Shown here: positions 3,300-42,827 of the stretch, piece by piece
Numbering within the stretch: the stretch's first letter is position 1
How the letters are laid out: each line of letters starts with the position of its first letter
From: Cordylochernes scorpioides
Taxonomy: Eukaryota > Arthropoda > Arachnida > Pseudoscorpiones > Chernetidae
DNA: 64,000 bases
Assembly: GCA_030710605.1 (NCBI GenBank)
Contig: CP092869.1
Span: 13,957,295 to 14,021,294, forward strand
Direction: 5' to 3'
The notes under the pieces: generated by a model
Told to the model about the DNA's origin: nothing
Databases searched by the model: none
What the model saw: only the letters and a program-made list of their open reading frames with translations
Program-made: the position numbers and the translations under genes

Positions 3300-3435
3300 T
3301 CACTAACCACAAACACAAAAGCCTTTAAAATTACAAAATATTTTCTCATAATGAGTTTCTTTTCATTACAAAACACTAGCTTTCAAGTGATAATCGCTCT
3401 TCAACGGGCTTAATAAACATCGACTATATCTTAGA

Positions 3436-3466
<31 letters not shown>

Positions 3467-3725
3467 GGCCCCTGCGCAAAATCGTGAAGCGTTCCATATA
3501 TCTTTGAAGAAATATTTACAAAAACATACGCGCGTAGCGTGGATATTTACAACTGAAAAATTAAAATTGTATTTAAAATGTTTAAATTGCGTATGTTTTT
3601 GTAAATATTTTTTGTATGATATAGTCGATGTTTTATTAAGCCCGTTGAAGAGAGATTATCACTTGAAAACTAGCGTTTTGTAATAAAAAGATACTCATTG
3701 TAAGAAAATATTTTATAATTTTAAA
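3300..3725. repeat. Foldback repeat carrying a U6 insert (copy A)
   Basis: The arms at about 3320-3432 and 3600-3725 are inverted complements. The right arm contains GTTGAAG, then a short hairpin region, then TTGAAAACTAG and AATAAAAAGA, the same architecture as the hairpin motifs at 35236 and 56731. The centre is AT-rich with CGCGCG near 3530. The U6 fragment at 3433-3498 interrupts the left half. Confidence 0.8.
3433..3498 (+). pseudogene. U6 snRNA pseudogene (truncated)
   Basis: U6 spliceosomal RNA pairs with the 5' splice site through its ACAGAGA box and forms the catalytic internal stem-loop. Here the central U6 sequence is recognisable, including GATACAGAGAAGATTAGC and CCCCTGCGCAA, then CGTGAAGCGTTCC. 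The 5' stem-loop is missing. About 13 bases (the GGATGACACGC part) are deleted between two CGCAA words. TATCTT flanks it at 3427-3432 and 3499-3504, and copy B has an uninterrupted site near 21645. There is no upstream promoter or T-run terminator, so it is a retro-inserted relic. Confidence 0.88.
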
Positions 3726-3871
3726 ACGTTTTTCGCAAATTTTATCATGAACAAAAGCCATTATTAAGACATAGTCTTATGCATGAAGTCCGTAGATGAA
3801 AATAATAAGGTAAAAGCTAATGACATTTAATGATAATAAAGATATTTTTAATTATAAGAACGGGCCATCTG

Positions 3872-16569: not shown

Positions 16570-18110
16570 CCTTAGTTGTTGTTGTCGTGTCCAACAAAGA
16601 GCCTCAGATGTCTCCGTACATCTCTATCACAGCAGTTGCAATATCCTCTATCTTGGGTGTGTAAAGCTGCTGTTCTGGGTCCATGTCAATTTTCTGTTGT
16701 TGTCGTGTCCAATGAAGAGCCTCAGATATCTACATACATCTCTATCACAGCAGTCGCAATGTCCTCTATCTTGGGTGTGTAAAGCTGCTGTTCTGGGTCC
16801 ATGTCAATTTTCTGTTGTTGTCGTGTCCAATGAAGAGCCTCAGATGTCTCCATACATCTCTATCACAGCAGTTGCAATGTCCTCTATCTTGGGTGTGTAA
16901 AGCTGCTGCTCTGGGTCCATGTCAATTTTCTGTTGTTGTCGTGTCCAATGAAGAGCCTCAGATGTCTCCATACATCTCTATCACAGCAGTCACAATGGCC
17001 ACTATCTTGGGTGTGTAAAGCTGCTGCTCTGGGTCCATGTCAATTTTCTGTTGTTGTCGTGTCCAATGAAGAGCCTCAGATGTCTCCATGCATCTCTATC
17101 ACAGCAGCAGCAATGTCCGCTATCTTGGGTGTGTAAAGCTGCCGTTCTGGGTCCATGTCAATTTTCTGTTGTTGTCGTGTCCAATGAAGAGCTTCAGATG
17201 TCTCCATACATCTCCATCACAGCAATAGCAATATCCTCTATCTTGGGTGTGTAAAGCTGCTGCTCTGGGTCCATGCCAATTTTATGTTGTTGTCGTGTTC
17301 AAAGAAGAGCCTCAGATGTCTCCATACATCTCCATCACAGCAATAGCAATATCCTCTATCTTGGGTGTGTAAAGCTGCTGTTCTGGGTCCATGTCGATTT
17401 TCTGTTGTTGTCATGTCCAACGAAGAGCCTCAGATATCTCCATGCATCTCTATCACAGCAGTTGCAATGGCCTCTATCTTGGGTGTGTAAAGCTGCTGCT
17501 CTGGGTCCATGCCAATTTTATGTTGTTGTCGTGTCCAATGAAGAGCCTCAGATGTTTCCATACATCTCCATCACAGCAATAGCAATATCCTCTATCTTGG
17601 GTGTGTAAAGCTGCTGCTCTGGGTCCATGTCAATTTTCTGTTGTTGTTGTGTCCAATGAAGAGCCTCAGATGTCTCCATACATCTCTATCACAGCAGTTG
17701 CAATGTCCTCTATCTTGGGTGTGTAAAGCTGCTGCTCTGGGTCCATGTCAATTTTCTGTTGTTGTCGTGTCCAATGAAGAGCCTCAGATGTCTCCATACA
17801 TCTCTATCACAGCAGTTGCAATGTCCTCTATCTTGGGTGTGTAAAGCTGCTGCTCTGGGTCCATGTCAATTTTCTGTTGTTGTCGTGTCCAATGAAGTGC
17901 CTCAGATGTCTCCATACATCTCTATCACAACAGTCACAATGTCCTCTATCTTGGGTGTGTAAAGCTGCTGTTCTGGGTCCATGTCAATTTTCTGTTGTTG
18001 TCGTGTCCAATGAAGAGCCTCAGATGTCTCCATACATCTCTATCACAGCAGTAGCAATGTCCACCATCTGTGTAAAACTGCTGCTCTGGGTCCATGTCAA
18101 TTTTCTGCAA
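16570..18110 (-). repeat. 118-bp tandem array from a LINE 3' end, about 13 units (copy B)
   Basis: Thirteen unit starts at about 118-bp spacing run from about 16575 to 17993, followed by a partial unit. The family is the one at 1700-2300, where only about five units occur. Neighbouring units share point variants (for example AATAGCAATATCC in several), which points to local amplification within the array. Confidence 0.9.
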
Positions 18111-18692: not shown

Positions 18693-20060
18693 CAACAACA
18701 ACAACAACAAAAAGCCTTTATTTAGGGTCACTGACCCTATACAGGATTCACCAGAGGTATGCATAAGAACAAAGCAGTGAGACAACGGAAATAGCGATAT
18801 ATACAGAGTAAAAAGAGAAAGAAAAAAAAAAAAAAACAAGAAAAGGAAAAAAAAAAATAATAAGAAGAAGAAGAAAGAGGGAAGCAAGAAATCAACACAA
18901 AAAGAGTAGCAGTAAGAAAGTGAGGAGTGAGTATCACTTGGCCTTCTTCTGAGATATGGACTTGTGGAAACCATAAAACGCCGTAGCAATATACTTATTC
19001 TGGGTCATATTGTCAATTATTGATGGAAGTGAAGCACAGAGTTGCCCAGTTTTGAGCATAAGGGTTCTTCTTTCTTCTTTCAGAGCAGAGCAATCAAAAA
19101 TATAGTGAGTGATTTCATTTTGTAGTTTTGAATTACAGAAGGTACAAGTCGGGTCCTCACCGCAGAGCATCTTGGTGTGGTTTTCTCTAAAAAAACTTGA
19201 AAGTATTCTAACTTGTGCGAGTAGTCTTACAACCGGGAAAGGAAAATCCCCTAAAAGGTATCCCTCCGTCATGAAAGATATGTGAATGTCTTTGTAGTGA
19301 GAGTATAGCTTAGATTTATCCATTCTTGTAAGGTCGTTTTGTATAGATTGGTCTGCCGCTGTTTTTAAGAGCCCTGTAATCGCGCTCCTCAGCATTTCAG
19401 GGTCATCACAGGAAACAAGTGCAGGGGATCCATTATCGTTAAGCAGATTAGTGAGCTTTTTAATGAAACCGATGGGTGTGCCCGAAGCATTAGAGAGTTC
19501 CCGTGTTCTATTAAAACATATACGTGGCAATCTGTCACTGCTCATATTCAACACCCGCAGCCAATACTTCAGGGTTAATTTTAAGGCTGTTACACTCAAT
19601 GAGATACGACCGGTTTCTAATCTGATTAGGTAACCTGGAGTGTATCTGGGCAGATTCAGGAACCTACGGATAAATATGTCTTGTATATTGTCCAGTAAGT
19701 CTTTATGCTCTGTTGCCCATAATGGAGCGGCATACATCAGGACAGCTCTCACTATTGTATCAAAGAGTTTGATTGATAAATTTATTGACTTTGCTTTTGA
19801 TTTTATTAATATTGGGTGTGTGGCGTTAATTGCTGTAAGTGCTTTTCCTTTAAAGTAATTTGCCGGGTGAGTAGTTGTTATTGTTGGTGTCAGAGGGAAT
19901 CCCAAGTATGTATATCTTGAAGTTATTGCTATGGGTTTATCATTCCAGAACCATCTATCCTTATTTGAGGGTTTACCTCCATTACGGAACACCATAATCT
20001 TTGACTTGGACTCATTTAGTGTCATTAAGTTCTCATCGAGATATTCTTTCAGTATTTTGA
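18693..20060 (-). mobile_element. 5'-truncated LINE inside the mariner-type MITE
   Basis: The insertion is bounded by GAGATAAATGAAAA at 18679-18692 and 20061-20074. On the minus strand it runs from the end of the reverse transcriptase to a tail AATAAAGGCTTTTTG and (TTG)n. The tail is that of the family at 388-549. Confidence 0.92.
18934..20058 (-). pseudogene. LINE polyprotein C-terminal part (RT thumb to knuckle)
   Basis: About 370 codons stay open to the natural stop at 18934. They begin within the reverse transcriptase after the catalytic YxDD region: NESKSKIMVFRNGGKPSN, then YTYLGFPLTPT, the usual RT/thumb boundary of non-LTR elements. An alpha-rich region follows, then a knuckle CTFCNSKLQNEITHYIFDC near the C-terminus. 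No endonuclease or catalytic RT motif remains, so it cannot act alone. The absence of stops suggests a young insertion. The first Met in the frame is not a biological start, because the insertion itself is truncated. Confidence 0.88.
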
Positions 20061-29619: not shown

Positions 29620-30420
29620 GTCATTTTAGGCTAAGAGCATTAAAAAAAGAAACGTCTTAAGAATATTCAGACTTGAGAAAAAATGCTCAATACATAAAGT
29701 ATTTTAGAAGATAAGTCTTTAAGTACCGAAAAAACGATTAACGTTTTTCAAGATTTCTGTTTGCATAAAGGCTAAGAACATTTGAAAAAAAAAAAACATC
29801 TTAAGAATCTTCAGACCTGAGGGAATGCTCAATACATAAAGTATTTTAGAAGAACCGAAAAACGATCAATCTCTTTCAAGATTTCTGTTTACTTAAAAGC
29901 TAAGAGCATTCGGAAAAAAATGCCTTAAGAATGTTTAGACCTGAGAGAATGCTCAATACATTAAGTATTTTAGAAGAACCGAAAAACGATCAACCTCTTT
30001 CAAGATTTCTGTTACTTAAAAGCTAAGAGATTCGGAAAAAAATGCCTTAAGAATGTTTAGACCTGAGAGAATGCTCAATACATTAAGTATTTTAGAAGAA
30101 CCGAAAAACGATCAATCTCTTTCAAGACTTCTGTTTACTTAAAAGCTAAGAGCATTCGGAAAAAATGTCTTAAGAATGTTTAGACCTGAGAGAATGCTCA
30201 ATACATTAAGTATTTTTGAAGATCAGTCTAGAGTACCGTCAAACGATCAACGTTTTTCAAGATTTCTCTTTACGGAAAGGCTAAGAGTATTCGGAAAAAA
30301 AAGTCTTGAGAGAATGTTCAATATTTTAGAAAAGATCAGTGTAATGTGTACAGTGAGTAGAGCGATGTATTCCAAGTTTTCTGTTTACGGAAGGTCTGAA
30401 GATGCAGCCACCAGCCATTA
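29620..30420. repeat. 115-bp tandem array, about 7 units (copy B)
   Basis: Units contain GAGAATGCTCAATACATTAA, TATTTTAGAAGAACCGAAAA and CTCTTTCAAGATTTCTGTTT. The last units diverge (GGAAAGGCTAAGAGTATTCG). Copy A is cut by the N gap in this same array. Confidence 0.88.
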
Positions 30421-30774
30421 GCCGACGTCCGATAAAGCGGCTATAAATACTGCTATACCTGGGCTAAATGTGGCACCACATTATGACATGGGGAGTGGCG
30501 TCCTGATTGGTGGTGGAATATTTCACTTCCTCATGTGCTGGACCAGCATCTTTTTTAACATCTTCACTTTTTAGATGTAAATTTTGCTGGAAGGAATTTT
30601 AATCCATAAAAAGAAAGGACACGTCTCCTTCCAAGTTTTTATAAAGCAATTATTCTCATAATTTCCATTTATATTTCAGCTATAGAATTGGCTTAGTCAC
30701 TTTGCCAGCTAAACAACTCTTTAGCAAATTATAAAGATTTCACCAATCACTAGTATATCTCATGAAAAGAAGGA
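30421..30774. other. Stretch without a supported gene
   Basis: No known repeat or ORF of note. It lies just beyond the part that copy A covers. Confidence 0.4.
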
Positions 30775-31110
30775 AGAGTCAGTGGACGAGTGGGTAACAC
30801 CCTCGATTCCCGACAGCCATGAACCAGGATTGAATCCCGTATTGGACACTTTATTTCAATATGTGAATAACCTTCTCAAGAAGCCTCTATGACCAAAAAT
30901 ATTTTTGCTTGCAGTGGTACAGCCTGCTTCACGCTAACGAGCACCACCAGCGCTAAACGCATTCGTGGATGGCTTCTCTTGATGTATCAAGAAAATGGGT
31001 AGGCCAAATATCAGGGAACAGGTTAAATCAATGTTTAGTTGATTTCTGTTCCACTAGATGGCGCTCTGCCATCTAAAAAGCTCATGTGTTCCTGGTCAGG
31101 ATATGTCTTC
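30775..31110 (+). mobile_element. SINE family 2, with tRNA-like head
   Basis: The head AGTCAGTGGACGAGTGGGTA and AGGATTGAATCCCG (B box) is followed by TATTGGACACTTTATTTC, the ACCAAAAATATTTTT region, GGTACAGCCTGCTTCACGC and the common 3' part with CACTAGATGGCGCTCTGCC. It has the best-preserved head of the four copies. Confidence 0.8.
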
Positions 31111-31134
31111 TTTATTTTTAATATTATTCAATGT

Positions 31135-31200
31135 TGTAAATATCATAAACTAGGATGCTCTTTTTGAGCGGCACCTAGTAAAGTGATTTTGGAACAAGAA
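31135..31200 (+). mobile_element. Short LINE-like 3' tail
   Basis: CATAAACTAGGATGCTCTTT, GAGCGGCACC and TAGTAAAGTGATTTTGGAAC are shared with 42828-42900, where the tail reads AATAAAGTGATTTTGG. It looks like a terminal piece of a retroelement with its polyadenylation signal. Confidence 0.5.
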
Positions 31201-31204
31201 TGAT

Positions 31205-31385
31205 GGTCCACACTGTACTGATGATCTTGCACTTGTCCGAAACCATGATCTCCAGGTGACATTCTGAATTCGCCAAAGTTTGTGTCGTGGCTTTGTCACC
31301 GAAGCTAGCATGCAGAGACAATCAATATATGACAGTTTTTGCGTCTATTTTGACGGGAACGATGTCCTTTCTTTTGCCACCGCGG
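31205..31385 (-). repeat. Dispersed block also present at 62530-62700
   Basis: Read on the minus strand it matches the later block: CGTCAAAATAGACGC, GTGACAAAGCCACGACA, ACTTTGGCGAATTCAG, GTCACCTGGAGATCATGGTT and TCGGAC. No frame is supported. Confidence 0.6.
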
Positions 31386-31650
31386 TCAAAATAATTGGAC
31401 AACAAGCATAATAGATTTAGCTATATGTACAAAAATAAAATATATATTCTCATTAATTTTTTTTCATTTAAAAAATTACATAAAATTTCTCTTTTTACAG
31501 AATTGAAGGTTTTTCTTCCATAAATATACAATGTAAAACTCTCTCTCTTTCTTTCTATAAAATTACTCAGATCTTAAAGTTGCGTTAATATCAGCATATA
31601 ACTCTTAAGTAAGATATTGAGTAGTTTCGTCATGTTTTGGGTCTAGAGAA
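31386..31650. other. AT-rich spacer before the satellite
   Basis: AT-rich with CTCTCTCTTTCTTTC and no gene. It leads directly into the 38-bp array. Confidence 0.5.
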
Positions 31651-33395
31651 TACAAAGAGGATTATTGGCATGGCCCTAAGCCCAAGAAACATTCAAAGAA
31701 CATTACCATGGCCCTAAGCCCAAGAAACACACAAAGAACATTAGCATGGCCCTAAGCCCAAGAAACATGCAAAGAAGATTAGCTTGGCTCTAAGCCCAAG
31801 AAACACACAAAGAACATTACCATGGCCCTAAGCCCAAGAAACACACAAAGAACATTAGCATGGCCCTAAGCCCAAGAAACATTCAAAGAACATTAGCATG
31901 GCCCTAAGCCCAAGAAACATGCAAAGAAGATTAGCTTGGCTCTAAGCCCAAGAAACACACAAAGAACATTACCATGGCCCTAAGCCCAAGAAACACACAA
32001 AAAACATTACCATGGCCCTAAGCCCAATAAACACACAAAGAACATTACCATGGCCCTAAGCCCAAGAAACATTCAAAGAACATTAGCAAGGCCCTAAGCC
32101 CAAGAAACATGCAAAGAAGATTAGCTTGGCTCTAAGCCCAAGAAACACACAAAGAACATTACCATGGCCCTAAGCCCAAGAAACACACAAAGAACATTAG
32201 CATGGTCCTAAGCCCAAGAAACACACAGAGAACATTAGCATGGCCCTAAGCCCAAGAAACACACAAAGAACATTAGCATGGCCCTAAGCCCAAGAAACAC
32301 ACAAAGAACATTAGCATGACTCTAAGCCCAAGAAACACACAAAGAACATTAGCATGGCCCTAAGCCCAAGAAACACACAAAGAACATTAGCATGGCCCTA
32401 AGCCCAATAAACACACAAAGAACATTAGCATGGCCCAAAGCCCAAGAAACACACAAAGAACATTAGCATTGCCCTAAGCCCAAGAAACACACAAAGAACA
32501 TTAGCATGGCCCTAAGCCCAATAAACACACAAAGAACATTAGCATGGCCCTAAGCCCAATAAACACACAGAGAACATTAGCATGGCCCAAAGCCCAAGAA
32601 ACACACAAAGAACATTAGCATGGCCCTAAGCCCAATAAACACACAAAGAACATTAGCATGGCCCTAAGCCCAAGAAACACACAAAGAACATTAGCATGGC
32701 CCTAAGCCCAATAAACATTCAAAGAACATCAGCATGGCCCTAAGCCCAATAAACATTCAAAGAACATTAGCATGGTCCTAAGCCCAATAAACATTCAAAG
32801 AACATTAGCATGGCCCTAAACCCAAGAAACACACAAAGAACATTAGCAAGGCCCTAAAGCCCAAGAAACATGCAAAGCACATTAGCATGGCCCTAAGCAC
32901 AAGAACATTAGCATGGTCCTAAGCCTAAGAAACATGCAAAGAACATTAGCAGGGCCCTAGGCCCAAGAAACATGCAAAGAAAATTAGCATGGCCCTAAGC
33001 CCAAGAAACACACAAAGAACATTAGAATGGCACTAAGACCAATAAACACACAAAGAACATTAGCATGGCCCTAAGCCCAAGAAACATGCAAAGAACATTA
33101 GAATGGCACTAAGACCAATAAACACACAAAGAACATTAGCATGGCCCTAAGCCCAAGAAACATGTAAAGCACATTAGCATGGCCCTAAGCACAAGAACAT
33201 TAGCATGGTCCTAAGCCTAAGAAACATGCAAAGAACATTAGCAGGGCCCTAGGCCCAAGAAACATGCAAAGAAAATTAGCATGGCCCTAAGCCCAAGAAA
33301 CACACAAAGAACATTAGAATGGCACTAAGACCAATAAACACACAAAGAACATTAGCATGGCCCTAAGCCCAAGAAACATGTAAAGAACATAAACA
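31651..33395 (+). repeat. 38-bp satellite related to the U6 snRNA core, about 45 units
   Basis: The unit is CATTAGCATGGCCCTAAGCC followed by CAAGAAACACACAAAGAA. Units at about 32224 and 32564 read ACAGAGAACATTAGCATGG then CCC, which matches the U6 ACAGAGA box and following bases at all but one position. AAGATTAGC, exactly as in U6, occurs in other units. The remainder (AAGCCCAAGAAACACAC) can be aligned to the U6 stretch from TGCGCAAGG to GACACGC with small gaps, giving a unit of 38 against about 41 in U6. The first unit has AATACAAAGAGGATTATTGG. Variants cluster, as expected of local amplification. It makes no protein. Confidence 0.9.
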
Positions 33396-33399
33396 TGGC

Positions 33400-33739
33400 C
33401 TTCCATCCGAAGAATGTCCAGACTTGTGAATCAGAGTATTTTCCAAAGAATATCGTCAAGGTTGAATCAATAATAAGATCAGTAGTCTGGCTGCAAGTCA
33501 TCAAGACGTGCCCTGGCATTTTTTAAAGTACGGCCCACTTACATATTACAGCATTGTCCCATTTTGAAATGGTTCTGGACCCGTTTGGCTCTCGCCGAGG
33601 TGTATACTGACCCAGCTTGGAAATACCTTTTAGATAACTTATGTCTATTGATTCTAAACCACCTTGTGTTTAAAGTATGCGCATTATTAATGTAAATCTG
33701 TTTACAATTCCGAGATATCTACATTTTGTAATATGCTGT
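33400..33739. other. Stretch without a supported gene
   Basis: Unique-looking sequence after the satellite. No ORF of note. Confidence 0.4.
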
Positions 33740-33834
33740 TGTTGTTGTCGTGTACAATGAAAAAGCCTCAGATGTCCCTGTGCATCTCTATCACATCAGT
33801 CGCAATGCCCATTATCTTGGGTGTGTAAAGCTGC
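33740..33834 (-). mobile_element. 95-bp LINE 3' tail of the 118-bp-array family
   Basis: It matches one unit of the arrays at 1700 and 16570 from TGTTGTTGTCGTG to GTGTGTAAAGCTGC. The exact duplication TGTAATATGCTGT brackets it at 33727-33739 and 33835-33847. This single copy shows where the LINE 3' terminus lies within the 118-bp unit. Confidence 0.9.
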
Positions 33835-34105
33835 TGTAATATGCTGTGGAAACTATATATAACGAAAGTGAAGAAAGTAAAAGTATTTTATTTTGCCCTA
33901 GAAGGAATTTTCGATTGAAAGAATCAGTCATAAATAGAGTTCCCACTCAGTATTTTCCTTAAAACACCTTTTTTTTTCATTCACTTAATGAGAATATAAC
34001 ACAACAACGACAAAAGCCTTTTATTAAAACATTTCGGCTTTCATGGAGTCCAAGAAAGTGAATAACAAACAATGGTAGACAGTATCAATAATAAAGGTAC
34101 AATTA

Positions 34106-40440: not shown

Positions 40441-42440
40441 GACTTCTTCCTAGCTTCTTGTACTGTTGATCCATCTACATTCAATCTACAGCTGTAGCCT
40501 TTCACAACGGCCATGGACTCCTCGTCTCTTGTACTGTAGAACCATCTACAATCAATCTACAGCTGTAGCCTTTCACAACGGCCACAACGTCTCTTGTACT
40601 GTAGAACCATCTACAATCAATCTACAGCTGTAGCCTTTCACAACGGCCACAACGTCTCTTGTACTGTAGAACCATCTACAATCAATCTACAGCTGTAGCC
40701 TTTCACAACGGCCACAACGTCTCTTGTACTGTAGATCCATCTACATTCAATCTACAGCTGTAGCCTTTCACAACGGCCATGGACTCCTCGTCTCTTGTAC
40801 TGTAGAACCATCTACAATCAATCTACAGCTGTAGCCTTTCACAACGGCCACAACGTCTCTTGTACTGTAGAACCATCTACAATCAATCTACAGCTGTAGC
40901 CTTTCACAACGGCCACAACGTCTCTTGTACTGTAGATCCATCTACATTCAATCTACAGCTGTAGCCTTTCACAACGGCCATGGACTCCTCGTCTCTTGTA
41001 CTGTAGAACCATCTACAATCAATCTACAGCTGCAGCCTTTAACAACGGCCACAACGTCTCTTGTACTGTAGAACCATCTACAATCAATCTACAGCTGTAG
41101 CCTTTCACAACGGCCACAACGTCTCTTGTACTGTAGAACCATCTACAATCAATCTACAGCTGTAGCCTTTCACAACGGCCATGGACTCCTCGTCTCTTGT
41201 ACTGTAGAACCATCTACAATCAATCTACAGCTGTAGCCTTTCACAACGGCCACAACGTCTCTTGTACTGTAGAACCATCTACAATCAATCTACAGCTGTA
41301 GCCTTTCACAACGGCCACAACGTCTCTTGTACTGTAGAACCATCTACAATCAATCTACAGCTGTAGCCTTTCACAACGGCCACAACGTCTCTTGTACTGT
41401 AGAACCATCTACAATCAATCTACAGCTGTAGCCTTTCACAACGGCCACAACGTCTCTTGTACTGTAGAACCATCTACAATCAATCTACAGCTGTAGCCTT
41501 TCACAACGGCCACAACGTCTCTTGTACTGTAGAACCATCTACAATCAATCTACAGCTGTAGCCTTTCACAACGGCCACAACGTCTCTTGTACTGTAGAAC
41601 CATCTACAATCAATCTACAGCTGTAGCCTTTCACAACGGCCACAACGTCTCTTGTACTGTAGAACCATCTACAATCAATCTACAGCTGTAGCCTTTCACA
41701 ACGGCCACAACGTCTCTTGTACTGTAGAACCATCTACAATCAATCTACAGCTGTAGCCTTTCACAACGGCCACAACGTCTCTTGTACTGTAGAACCATCT
41801 ACAATCAATCTACAGCTGTAGCCTTTCACAACGGCCACAACGTCTCTTGTACTGTAGAACCATCTACAATCAATCTACAGCTGTAGCCTTTCACAACGGC
41901 CACAACGTCTCTTGTACTGTAGAACCATCTACAATCAATCTACAGCTGTAGCCTTTCACAACGGCCACAAGGTCTCTTGTACTGTAGAACCATCTACAAT
42001 CAATCTACAGCTGTAGCCTTTCACAACGGCCACAAGGTCTCTTGTACTGTAGAACCATCTACAATCAATCTACAGCTGTAGCCTTTCACAACGGCCACAA
42101 GGTCTCTTGTACTGTAGAACCATCTACAATCAATCTACAGTGTAGCCTTTCACAACGGCCACAACGTCTCTTGTACTGTAGAACCGTCTACAATCAATCT
42201 ACAGCTGTAGCCTTTCACAACGGCCACAACGTCTCTTGTACTGTAGAACCATCTACAATCAATCTACAGCTGTAGCCTTTCACAACGGCCACAACGTCTC
42301 TTGTACTGTAGAACCATCTACAATCAATCTACAGCTGTAGCCTTTCACAACGGCCACAACGTCTCTTGTACTGTAGAACCATCTACAATCAATCTACAGC
42401 TGTAGCCTTTCACAACGGCCACAACGTCTCTTGTACTGTA
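40441..42440. repeat. 65-bp satellite, about 30 units
   Basis: The unit contains GTCTCTTGTACTGTAGAACC, ATCTACAATCAATCTACAG and CTGTAGCCTTTCACAACGGC. Exact 65-bp spacing is seen from about 41200 to 42440. The first third is mixed with a longer variant carrying CATGGACTCCTC, arranged in groups. CTACAGCTGTAG in each unit is a perfect 12-bp palindrome. The many short frames are by-products. Confidence 0.95.
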
Positions 42441-42827
42441 GATCTGACGACCCATCTACATTTTTTTATAATGAGCCCATATGATTATAATTTTAATTCG
42501 TAGATGTATAATGATTTTTTTTTTTAATTTTACTTCAAAGAGTTTTTTGACTTACGACTCAACAAATCATATATTAGGAAACTTTAATCTTACATATAGA
42601 TTAGATACATTCTCTGACTTAAACGTTTACGAAATCTTGGAGAATGGATTCTTTGTTACATATCTTGGTACGTGTTGCCTAGATATTTAGAAAAAATAGT
42701 GAATTTATGAATTTTTAGGTCACTTTTCAATCTAACCTCTCCACTATTATATTTTTAATATATATATATATATATACGTTACTTTTATTCTAATTTAGAA
42801 AGATACATGTGAATAAACCTTCACATA
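42441..42827. other. AT-rich stretch without a recognised gene
   Basis: A 69-codon plus-strand frame (42481-42690) has no recognisable domain. A (TA)n tract is at about 42759-42775. Confidence 0.4.

Follow-up and report, generated by a model that had tools for sequence, protein, structure and literature searches.

A 64-kb stretch of the Cordylochernes scorpioides genome (the window) contains a 38-bp tandem repeat that raises the question of whether a satellite can be born from a fragment of U6, the snRNA central to the spliceosome. To our knowledge, the parent of most satellites is obscure. A first-pass annotation of the window had read this repeat as a satellite born from the U6 core, a reading supported both by shuffle and decoy tests and by plain U6 arrays elsewhere in the genome. 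Most probably, the array is a small, old satellite descended from a retroposed piece of U6 that spanned nucleotides (nt) about 38 to 87, which include the ACAGAGA box and the segment that follows it.

The repeat itself is real. Tandem Repeats Finder places it at positions 31664-33400 of the window, with a period of 38 bp, 46.3 head-to-tail copies and 87% matches, and alignment to U6 puts its U6-like sense on the forward strand. Being made of head-to-tail copies of one unit, it qualifies as a satellite or minisatellite. The bounds first given, 31651-33395, hold only approximately, as the start lies 13 bases early, inside a degenerate left-edge unit, and the end falls 5 bases short. No open reading frame of at least 120 aa overlapping the array was found. 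The array is part of a duplicated block (30356-34085, forward strand) whose second copy (L028:3428-5797) lies farther along the contig, about 88 kb downstream. This copy carries a shorter array of 10.2 units of the 38-bp repeat (L028:4732-5119), and the flanks of the two arrays are 91% (left) and 94% (right) identical. When the genome was searched at the DNA level with the 38-bp array, matches were obtained at the window and at L028 alone, as two first-look candidates; the two are termed the C7 arrays below. The window also contains a 65-bp satellite (40456-42442; 30.2 copies, 96% regular).

The window array was cut into 46 units. The annotation had described a U6 word with one mismatch over 22 bases; this form, ACAGAGAACATTAGCATGGCCC, is present, but in just two of the 46 units (32225-32246 and 32567-32588, forward strand; 21 of 22 bases as in U6), and the commonest form of the word has two mismatches to U6. 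With up to three mismatches allowed, the 22-base U6 word is found 28 times in the window, 27 times in the array and once in a U6 relic; the same search in 100 dinucleotide shuffles of the window yields a mean and a largest count of 0. Set out as 57 rows, a few of which are out of register next to short units, the units of the two C7 arrays have a consensus that agrees with U6 at 21 of 25 core columns. At three of the four deviating columns some rows show the U6 base (19 rows with T, 2 with G and 4 with G, respectively).

The U6 relic, which the annotation had reported at 3433, is confirmed by Rfam at 3412-3503 on the forward strand (RF00026, 66.9 bits against a gathering score of 44). It sits in a foldback element (3317-3732) whose 101-nt arms, 3317-3417 and 3632-3732, are 89% complementary. 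By reading, it is a 5ʹ-truncated and internally deleted U6 copy; it is a copy separate from the array and at most a candidate parent.

Arrays retaining more of U6, for which the annotation had suggested a search, do exist in this genome, and some are framed by the ends of U6 copies. Unmistakable U6 satellites with units of 28, 53 and 66 bp are present on nine contigs examined. Pairs of the exact core ATTAGCATGGCCC separated by 12-42 bases (periods of 25-55) occur at 45 places, with observed periods of 25 to 54; ten of these places lie in the window array and the other 35 are spread over eight further contigs. Pairs separated by 43-73 bases (periods of 56-86) number 6,733, the places listed being the first ones, all on contig C1. 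The reversed-pattern controls gave 0 in both ranges. Additionally, the U6-U6 junction word TTAGCATGGCCCCTGTGATAC has 8,751 exact occurrences genome-wide (reversed control, 0) and is exact in 111 of 250 units from 18 fetched stretches. If the same share applied throughout, the genome would contain about 20,000 units (1.3 Mb); the estimate is rough, since exact cores had guided the choice of most of the 18 stretches. A 13-base U2 word, possibly different from the species' own U2, gave 0 matches in the same tandem pattern.

These satellites differ in the part of U6 that they repeat. The 28-bp unit, present at two places 53 kb apart on C14, is identical to U6 nt 44-72 at 28 of 29 positions; the left flanks of the two arrays are alike (89% over 125 bases) and the right flanks are not. 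The 53-bp array on C22 is 97% regular, with 48 of 54 positions identical to U6. The 66-bp arrays, located on C1, C3, C4, C12, C15, C20 and C23, cover U6 nt about 1-70 with 54 of 58 positions identical, and are intermixed with periods of 37 to 60 bp and with longer compound periods. Full-length U6 also occurs in tandem within CT-rich simple repeats, as 2.9 copies of 119 bp on C1 (L060:3045-3390) and 1.8 copies of 111 bp on C12 (L061:3512-3714). Lying 2 kb from the former is a different 38-bp satellite (L060:5444-6274; 21.8 copies), whose sequence is unlike that of the window. Among 16 sources with other arrays, Rfam places 52 matches to U6 and one to U4 above threshold, all in 13 of the sources; the remaining three, the 28-bp sources L063, L064 and L073, have no U6 match above threshold.

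The edges of these arrays suggest how they arose. Among the 20 stretches scored, L063 and L073 represent the two ends of a single array, and L085 and L087 resemble each other at their edges. Of 13 visible left edges, one of them masked with N, seven show a U6 5ʹ end beyond the internal unit (p < 0.005), and of 17 visible right edges seven show a U6 3ʹ part (p of 0.001 or less). Both ends frame the array at L059, L077, L082 and L086. The 5ʹ end was not found at the left edges of L064, L069, L072 (masked), L073, L074 and L083, nor the 3ʹ part at the right edges of L063, L064, L067, L072, L074, L078, L080, L084, L085 and L087. At L077, 58.8 units lie between U6 sequence at both edges. At L059, a U6 copy with its 5ʹ and 3ʹ ends in place contains seven 66-bp units, and a U4 snRNA fragment (L059:5095-5169, reverse strand; 47.5 bits, threshold 46) is fused directly upstream, making a U4::U6 fusion. 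L082 is a U6 dimer flanked by two copies of CACGTTAGAGATAAT, a 15-bp target-site duplication that shrinks to 11 bp if its first four bases are assigned to U6. The units of this dimer are nearly canonical U6 (TGCGATAC junction, ACATATACTAAAA). The junction between them, CCCCTGCG followed by ATACTTGTTCGG, can be read as U6 up to nt about 70 running into a U6 5ʹ end that is slightly shortened, so that the apparent filler of the 66-bp unit is probably U6 as well. Together, the framed arrays and the dimer with its duplication point to U6 being retroposed, becoming head-to-tail and expanding.

Private changes, ACAACTACTACAATAGG, are common to units on C1, C3, C4, C12, C15, C20, C22 and C23, and the junction TGTGATAC recurs in arrays on C1, C3, C4, C12, C15 and C20. 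Because the ACAACTACTACAATAGG changes are spread over many chromosomes, the changed 66-bp type, at least, looks like one dispersed family, and the 53-bp array looks like an offshoot of it. These arrays could have been retroposed as finished tandem RNA, transcribed from a U6 with internal repeats, rather than formed by many local expansions. The shared changes and junction would fit such mobility, as would the U6 ends that frame some arrays and the target-site duplication of the dimer. However, the dimer has nearly canonical units and so does not demonstrate that the changed type moves as an array. Moreover, the shared word at L086 is weak (9 bp, five of them U6 bases, and it stops 6 bases before reaching the 5ʹ end), no target-site duplication was found at L083 or at L059 (where the test took the start of U6 and not that of U4), and L077 has just an 8-bp word away from the edges. 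Retroposition of finished arrays is accordingly doubtful. A broader proposal, advanced tentatively, is that C. scorpioides may host a mobile U6 family, retroposed as RNA and consisting of variable tandem U6 nt about 1-70 between U6 ends, with thousands of units on many chromosomes, and that the 28- and 38-bp arrays would be separate births from other U6 pieces.

The window array stands outside the 66-bp family. The junction of that family, CCCCTGTGATAC, is absent from all 46 window units, and the two units cover different parts of U6 (nt about 1-70 in the family, nt about 37-87 in the 38-bp unit). The 38-bp array might still be second-hand, derived through a change of period from an existing 28-bp or 66-bp U6 satellite. 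In favor of this, the core is preceded by CACA and followed by CCCT in both the 28-bp and the 38-bp units; the corresponding words of U6 are ATACA and CCCCT. Against it, the 38-bp consensus scores higher with plain U6 (23) than with the 28-bp (20), 66-bp (19.5) or 53-bp (17) unit, and the C7, C14, C3 and C22 arrays have flanks unrelated to one another, in addition to the missing 66-bp junction. A second-hand origin thus appears unlikely.

The left edge of the array shares further bases with U6. The degenerate unit ATACAAAGAGGATTATTGGCATGG (31650-31673, forward strand), seen in sequence and alignment, agrees with U6 at the T of ATAC and the G of GATT, where the array consensus differs, and also has other changes and a short insertion absent from U6. 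ATAC and GATT, as in U6, are present in the left-edge units of both C7 arrays. At the right edge (33396-33406, forward strand), the array passes into TTCCAT, a weak six-base resemblance to the U6 end GTTCCAT. The U6 tail reads GATGACACGC. Right-flank tests for the U6 end at the C7 arrays were not significant, and among four flank tests on the window array and its second copy, one gave p 0.017, uncorrected, and the others 0.13-0.62. On these figures the C7 flanks show no clear sign of U6 ends, and the idea of such ends was dropped. On balance, the window array would more probably than not be a birth of its own, and an older one.

Whether the window array is U6-derived at all depends on how far its likeness to U6 exceeds chance. 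The reference was the genome's own U6, read from copies on C20, where a TATA-like upstream sequence is common to five of the six listed. The 38-bp consensus, taken three times over and aligned to this U6, scores 23, with 39 identical of 52 columns spanning U6 nt about 37-87. Three nulls of 20,000 shuffles each (the unit by base, the unit by dinucleotide and U6 by dinucleotide) gave a best score of 18 and never reached 23 (fitted p 1e-7 to 6e-7), so the unit fits the species' own U6 far better than shuffles do. To account for the choice of the best place anywhere in the 64 kb, decoys made of shuffled U6 were additionally scored against the full window; 0 of 3,000 reached the array's best score of 25 (fitted p 1.8e-4). 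The annotation had named a consensus no better than shuffled controls as grounds for refutation, and these results bring no refutation, with the reservation that the best whole-window decoy scored 23.5 and that the consensus score of 23 was reached by three of the 3,000. Elsewhere in the window, with array and relic excluded, the top score in 1,623 segments of 114 bases was 19, from a 118-bp satellite on the other strand.

That 118-bp satellite (1704-2295 and 16577-18107; minus-strand scores of 19 and 18.5) was itself tried as a U6 satellite and rejected; decoys give 19 with p of about 0.03, and its score against U6 is probably due to chance. Its unit has a short open frame, read by eye, and a piece of the unit also occurs in the right flank of the 38-bp array (33738-33837).

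The likeness of the window array is unevenly distributed along its unit. The annotation had extended the alignment over the rest of the unit, through GACACGC. Taken alone, this stretch is only weakly backed, as 1041 and 639 of 50,000 shuffles do equally well, and outside the core of about 25 bases the likeness has p 0.01-0.02. The claim that the whole 38-bp unit is demonstrably U6 was therefore dropped, and its strong part is the core of about 25 columns alone. The best Rfam U6 (RF00026) match on the window array has 18.2 bits (E 0.21), under the gathering score of 44; the near-perfect 28-bp arrays likewise fall under this threshold. Because the array is weak past the core and below the Rfam threshold, its U6 origin is a strong inference and not a direct demonstration, yet it is highly probable.

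The same weaknesses are what an ordinary minisatellite with a U6-like word, arising by chance in a genome that separately owns real U6 satellites, would be expected to have, and the decoy scores of up to 23.5 over the window and the 19 of the 118-bp satellite are in keeping with such an accident. It is nevertheless very improbable, given that none of the 60,000 shuffles over three nulls attains the consensus score, that U6 bases persist among the units at three of the four mismatched core columns and that the genome has been shown to produce U6 arrays. It is scarcely credible that selection has kept the arrays, for example as a source of U6-like RNA binding U2, U4 or Lsm proteins, since they vary freely in sequence and period and the catalytic core held by their units is what the searches selected for. 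The window array is taken to be neutral repeat DNA, with no reason to assign it a function, and is very probably one among the many tandem arrays to which U6 has given rise in this genome.

Descent of the window array from retroposed U6 can be laid out as a path of four steps. First, a LINE-type reverse transcriptase would presumably copy U6 RNA, whole or truncated, into the genome. Next, during insertion or later, a segment would turn head-to-tail, through slippage or through template jumps from one U6 RNA to another; the similar U6 words GATACAGAG and GACACGC lie 37 bases apart, near the 38-bp period, and might suit such a slip. Slippage and unequal exchange would then expand and homogenise the array, and local duplication would have given rise to its second copy 88 kb away. 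Several pieces of this path are observed, namely, the U6 tandem arrays, the arrays within U6 copies, one dimer with a target-site duplication and the local duplication; we infer the order of the second and third steps and that the 38-bp array followed the path. The window also contains a LINE-type frame on the reverse strand (18934-20025; 363 aa) that matches a C. scorpioides protein at 96% identity across 73% of its length and is possibly a relative of the copying enzyme.

Here the parent of a satellite is known to the base, and what appear to be successive stages, from single copy through dimer with target-site duplication and framed array to decayed array, coexist in one genome. With a known parent, many stages and several periods from one short RNA, the birth of a satellite becomes traceable step by step. 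The catalytic core of the spliceosome can become repeat DNA, and if the 28- and 38-bp births are truly separate, a core spliceosomal RNA is a recurrent satellite seed. As a practical consequence, caution is needed before a U6 match in a genome of this kind is counted as a gene.

No U6-derived satellite was found in the listed titles and abstract openings of the open-access literature searched, a result that does not prove absence. A 2009 paper (Gene 448:139) reportedly, by its title, deals with an ancient repeat derived from U6 in primates. In the available part of PMC4476161, that paper is cited for U/L1 or U/pseudogene chimeras. U6 retrocopies and chimeras have already been described, as have satellites proposed to derive from, or homologous to, rDNA spacers. 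In mammals, U6 retropseudogenes and U6 chimeras are made by LINE-1, with U6 RNA inserted, target-site duplications and template-switch fusions to other RNAs, as described in the parts available of two reports (PMC4476161, PMC13174262). The present genome is alike in these respects, with the U4::U6 fusion at L059 and the U6 dimer with its duplication as counterparts. Unlike the mammalian case, U6 pieces here form tandem arrays of up to about 59 units; neither "tandem" nor "satellite" occurs in the main text of PMC4476161, and PMC13174262 uses "tandem" a single time, of SVA, and "satellite" never. In the portion consulted of a study of grasshopper repeats, U snRNA genes are among the tandem families, not as satellite parents (PMC7754599). 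Other parallels, to judge from the available sections of the reports, are the fish satellite As51, proposed to come from a 45S rDNA spacer (PMC13170303), and an rDNA-derived satellite of tomato with homology to the rDNA spacer (PMC2679016). As in C. scorpioides, these satellites are traced to a multigene RNA locus. However, their source is (or, in tomato, is homologous to) the spacers of rDNA that is already tandem, whereas the C. scorpioides satellites would have been seeded by the RNA-coding core of U6, by way of dispersed copies.
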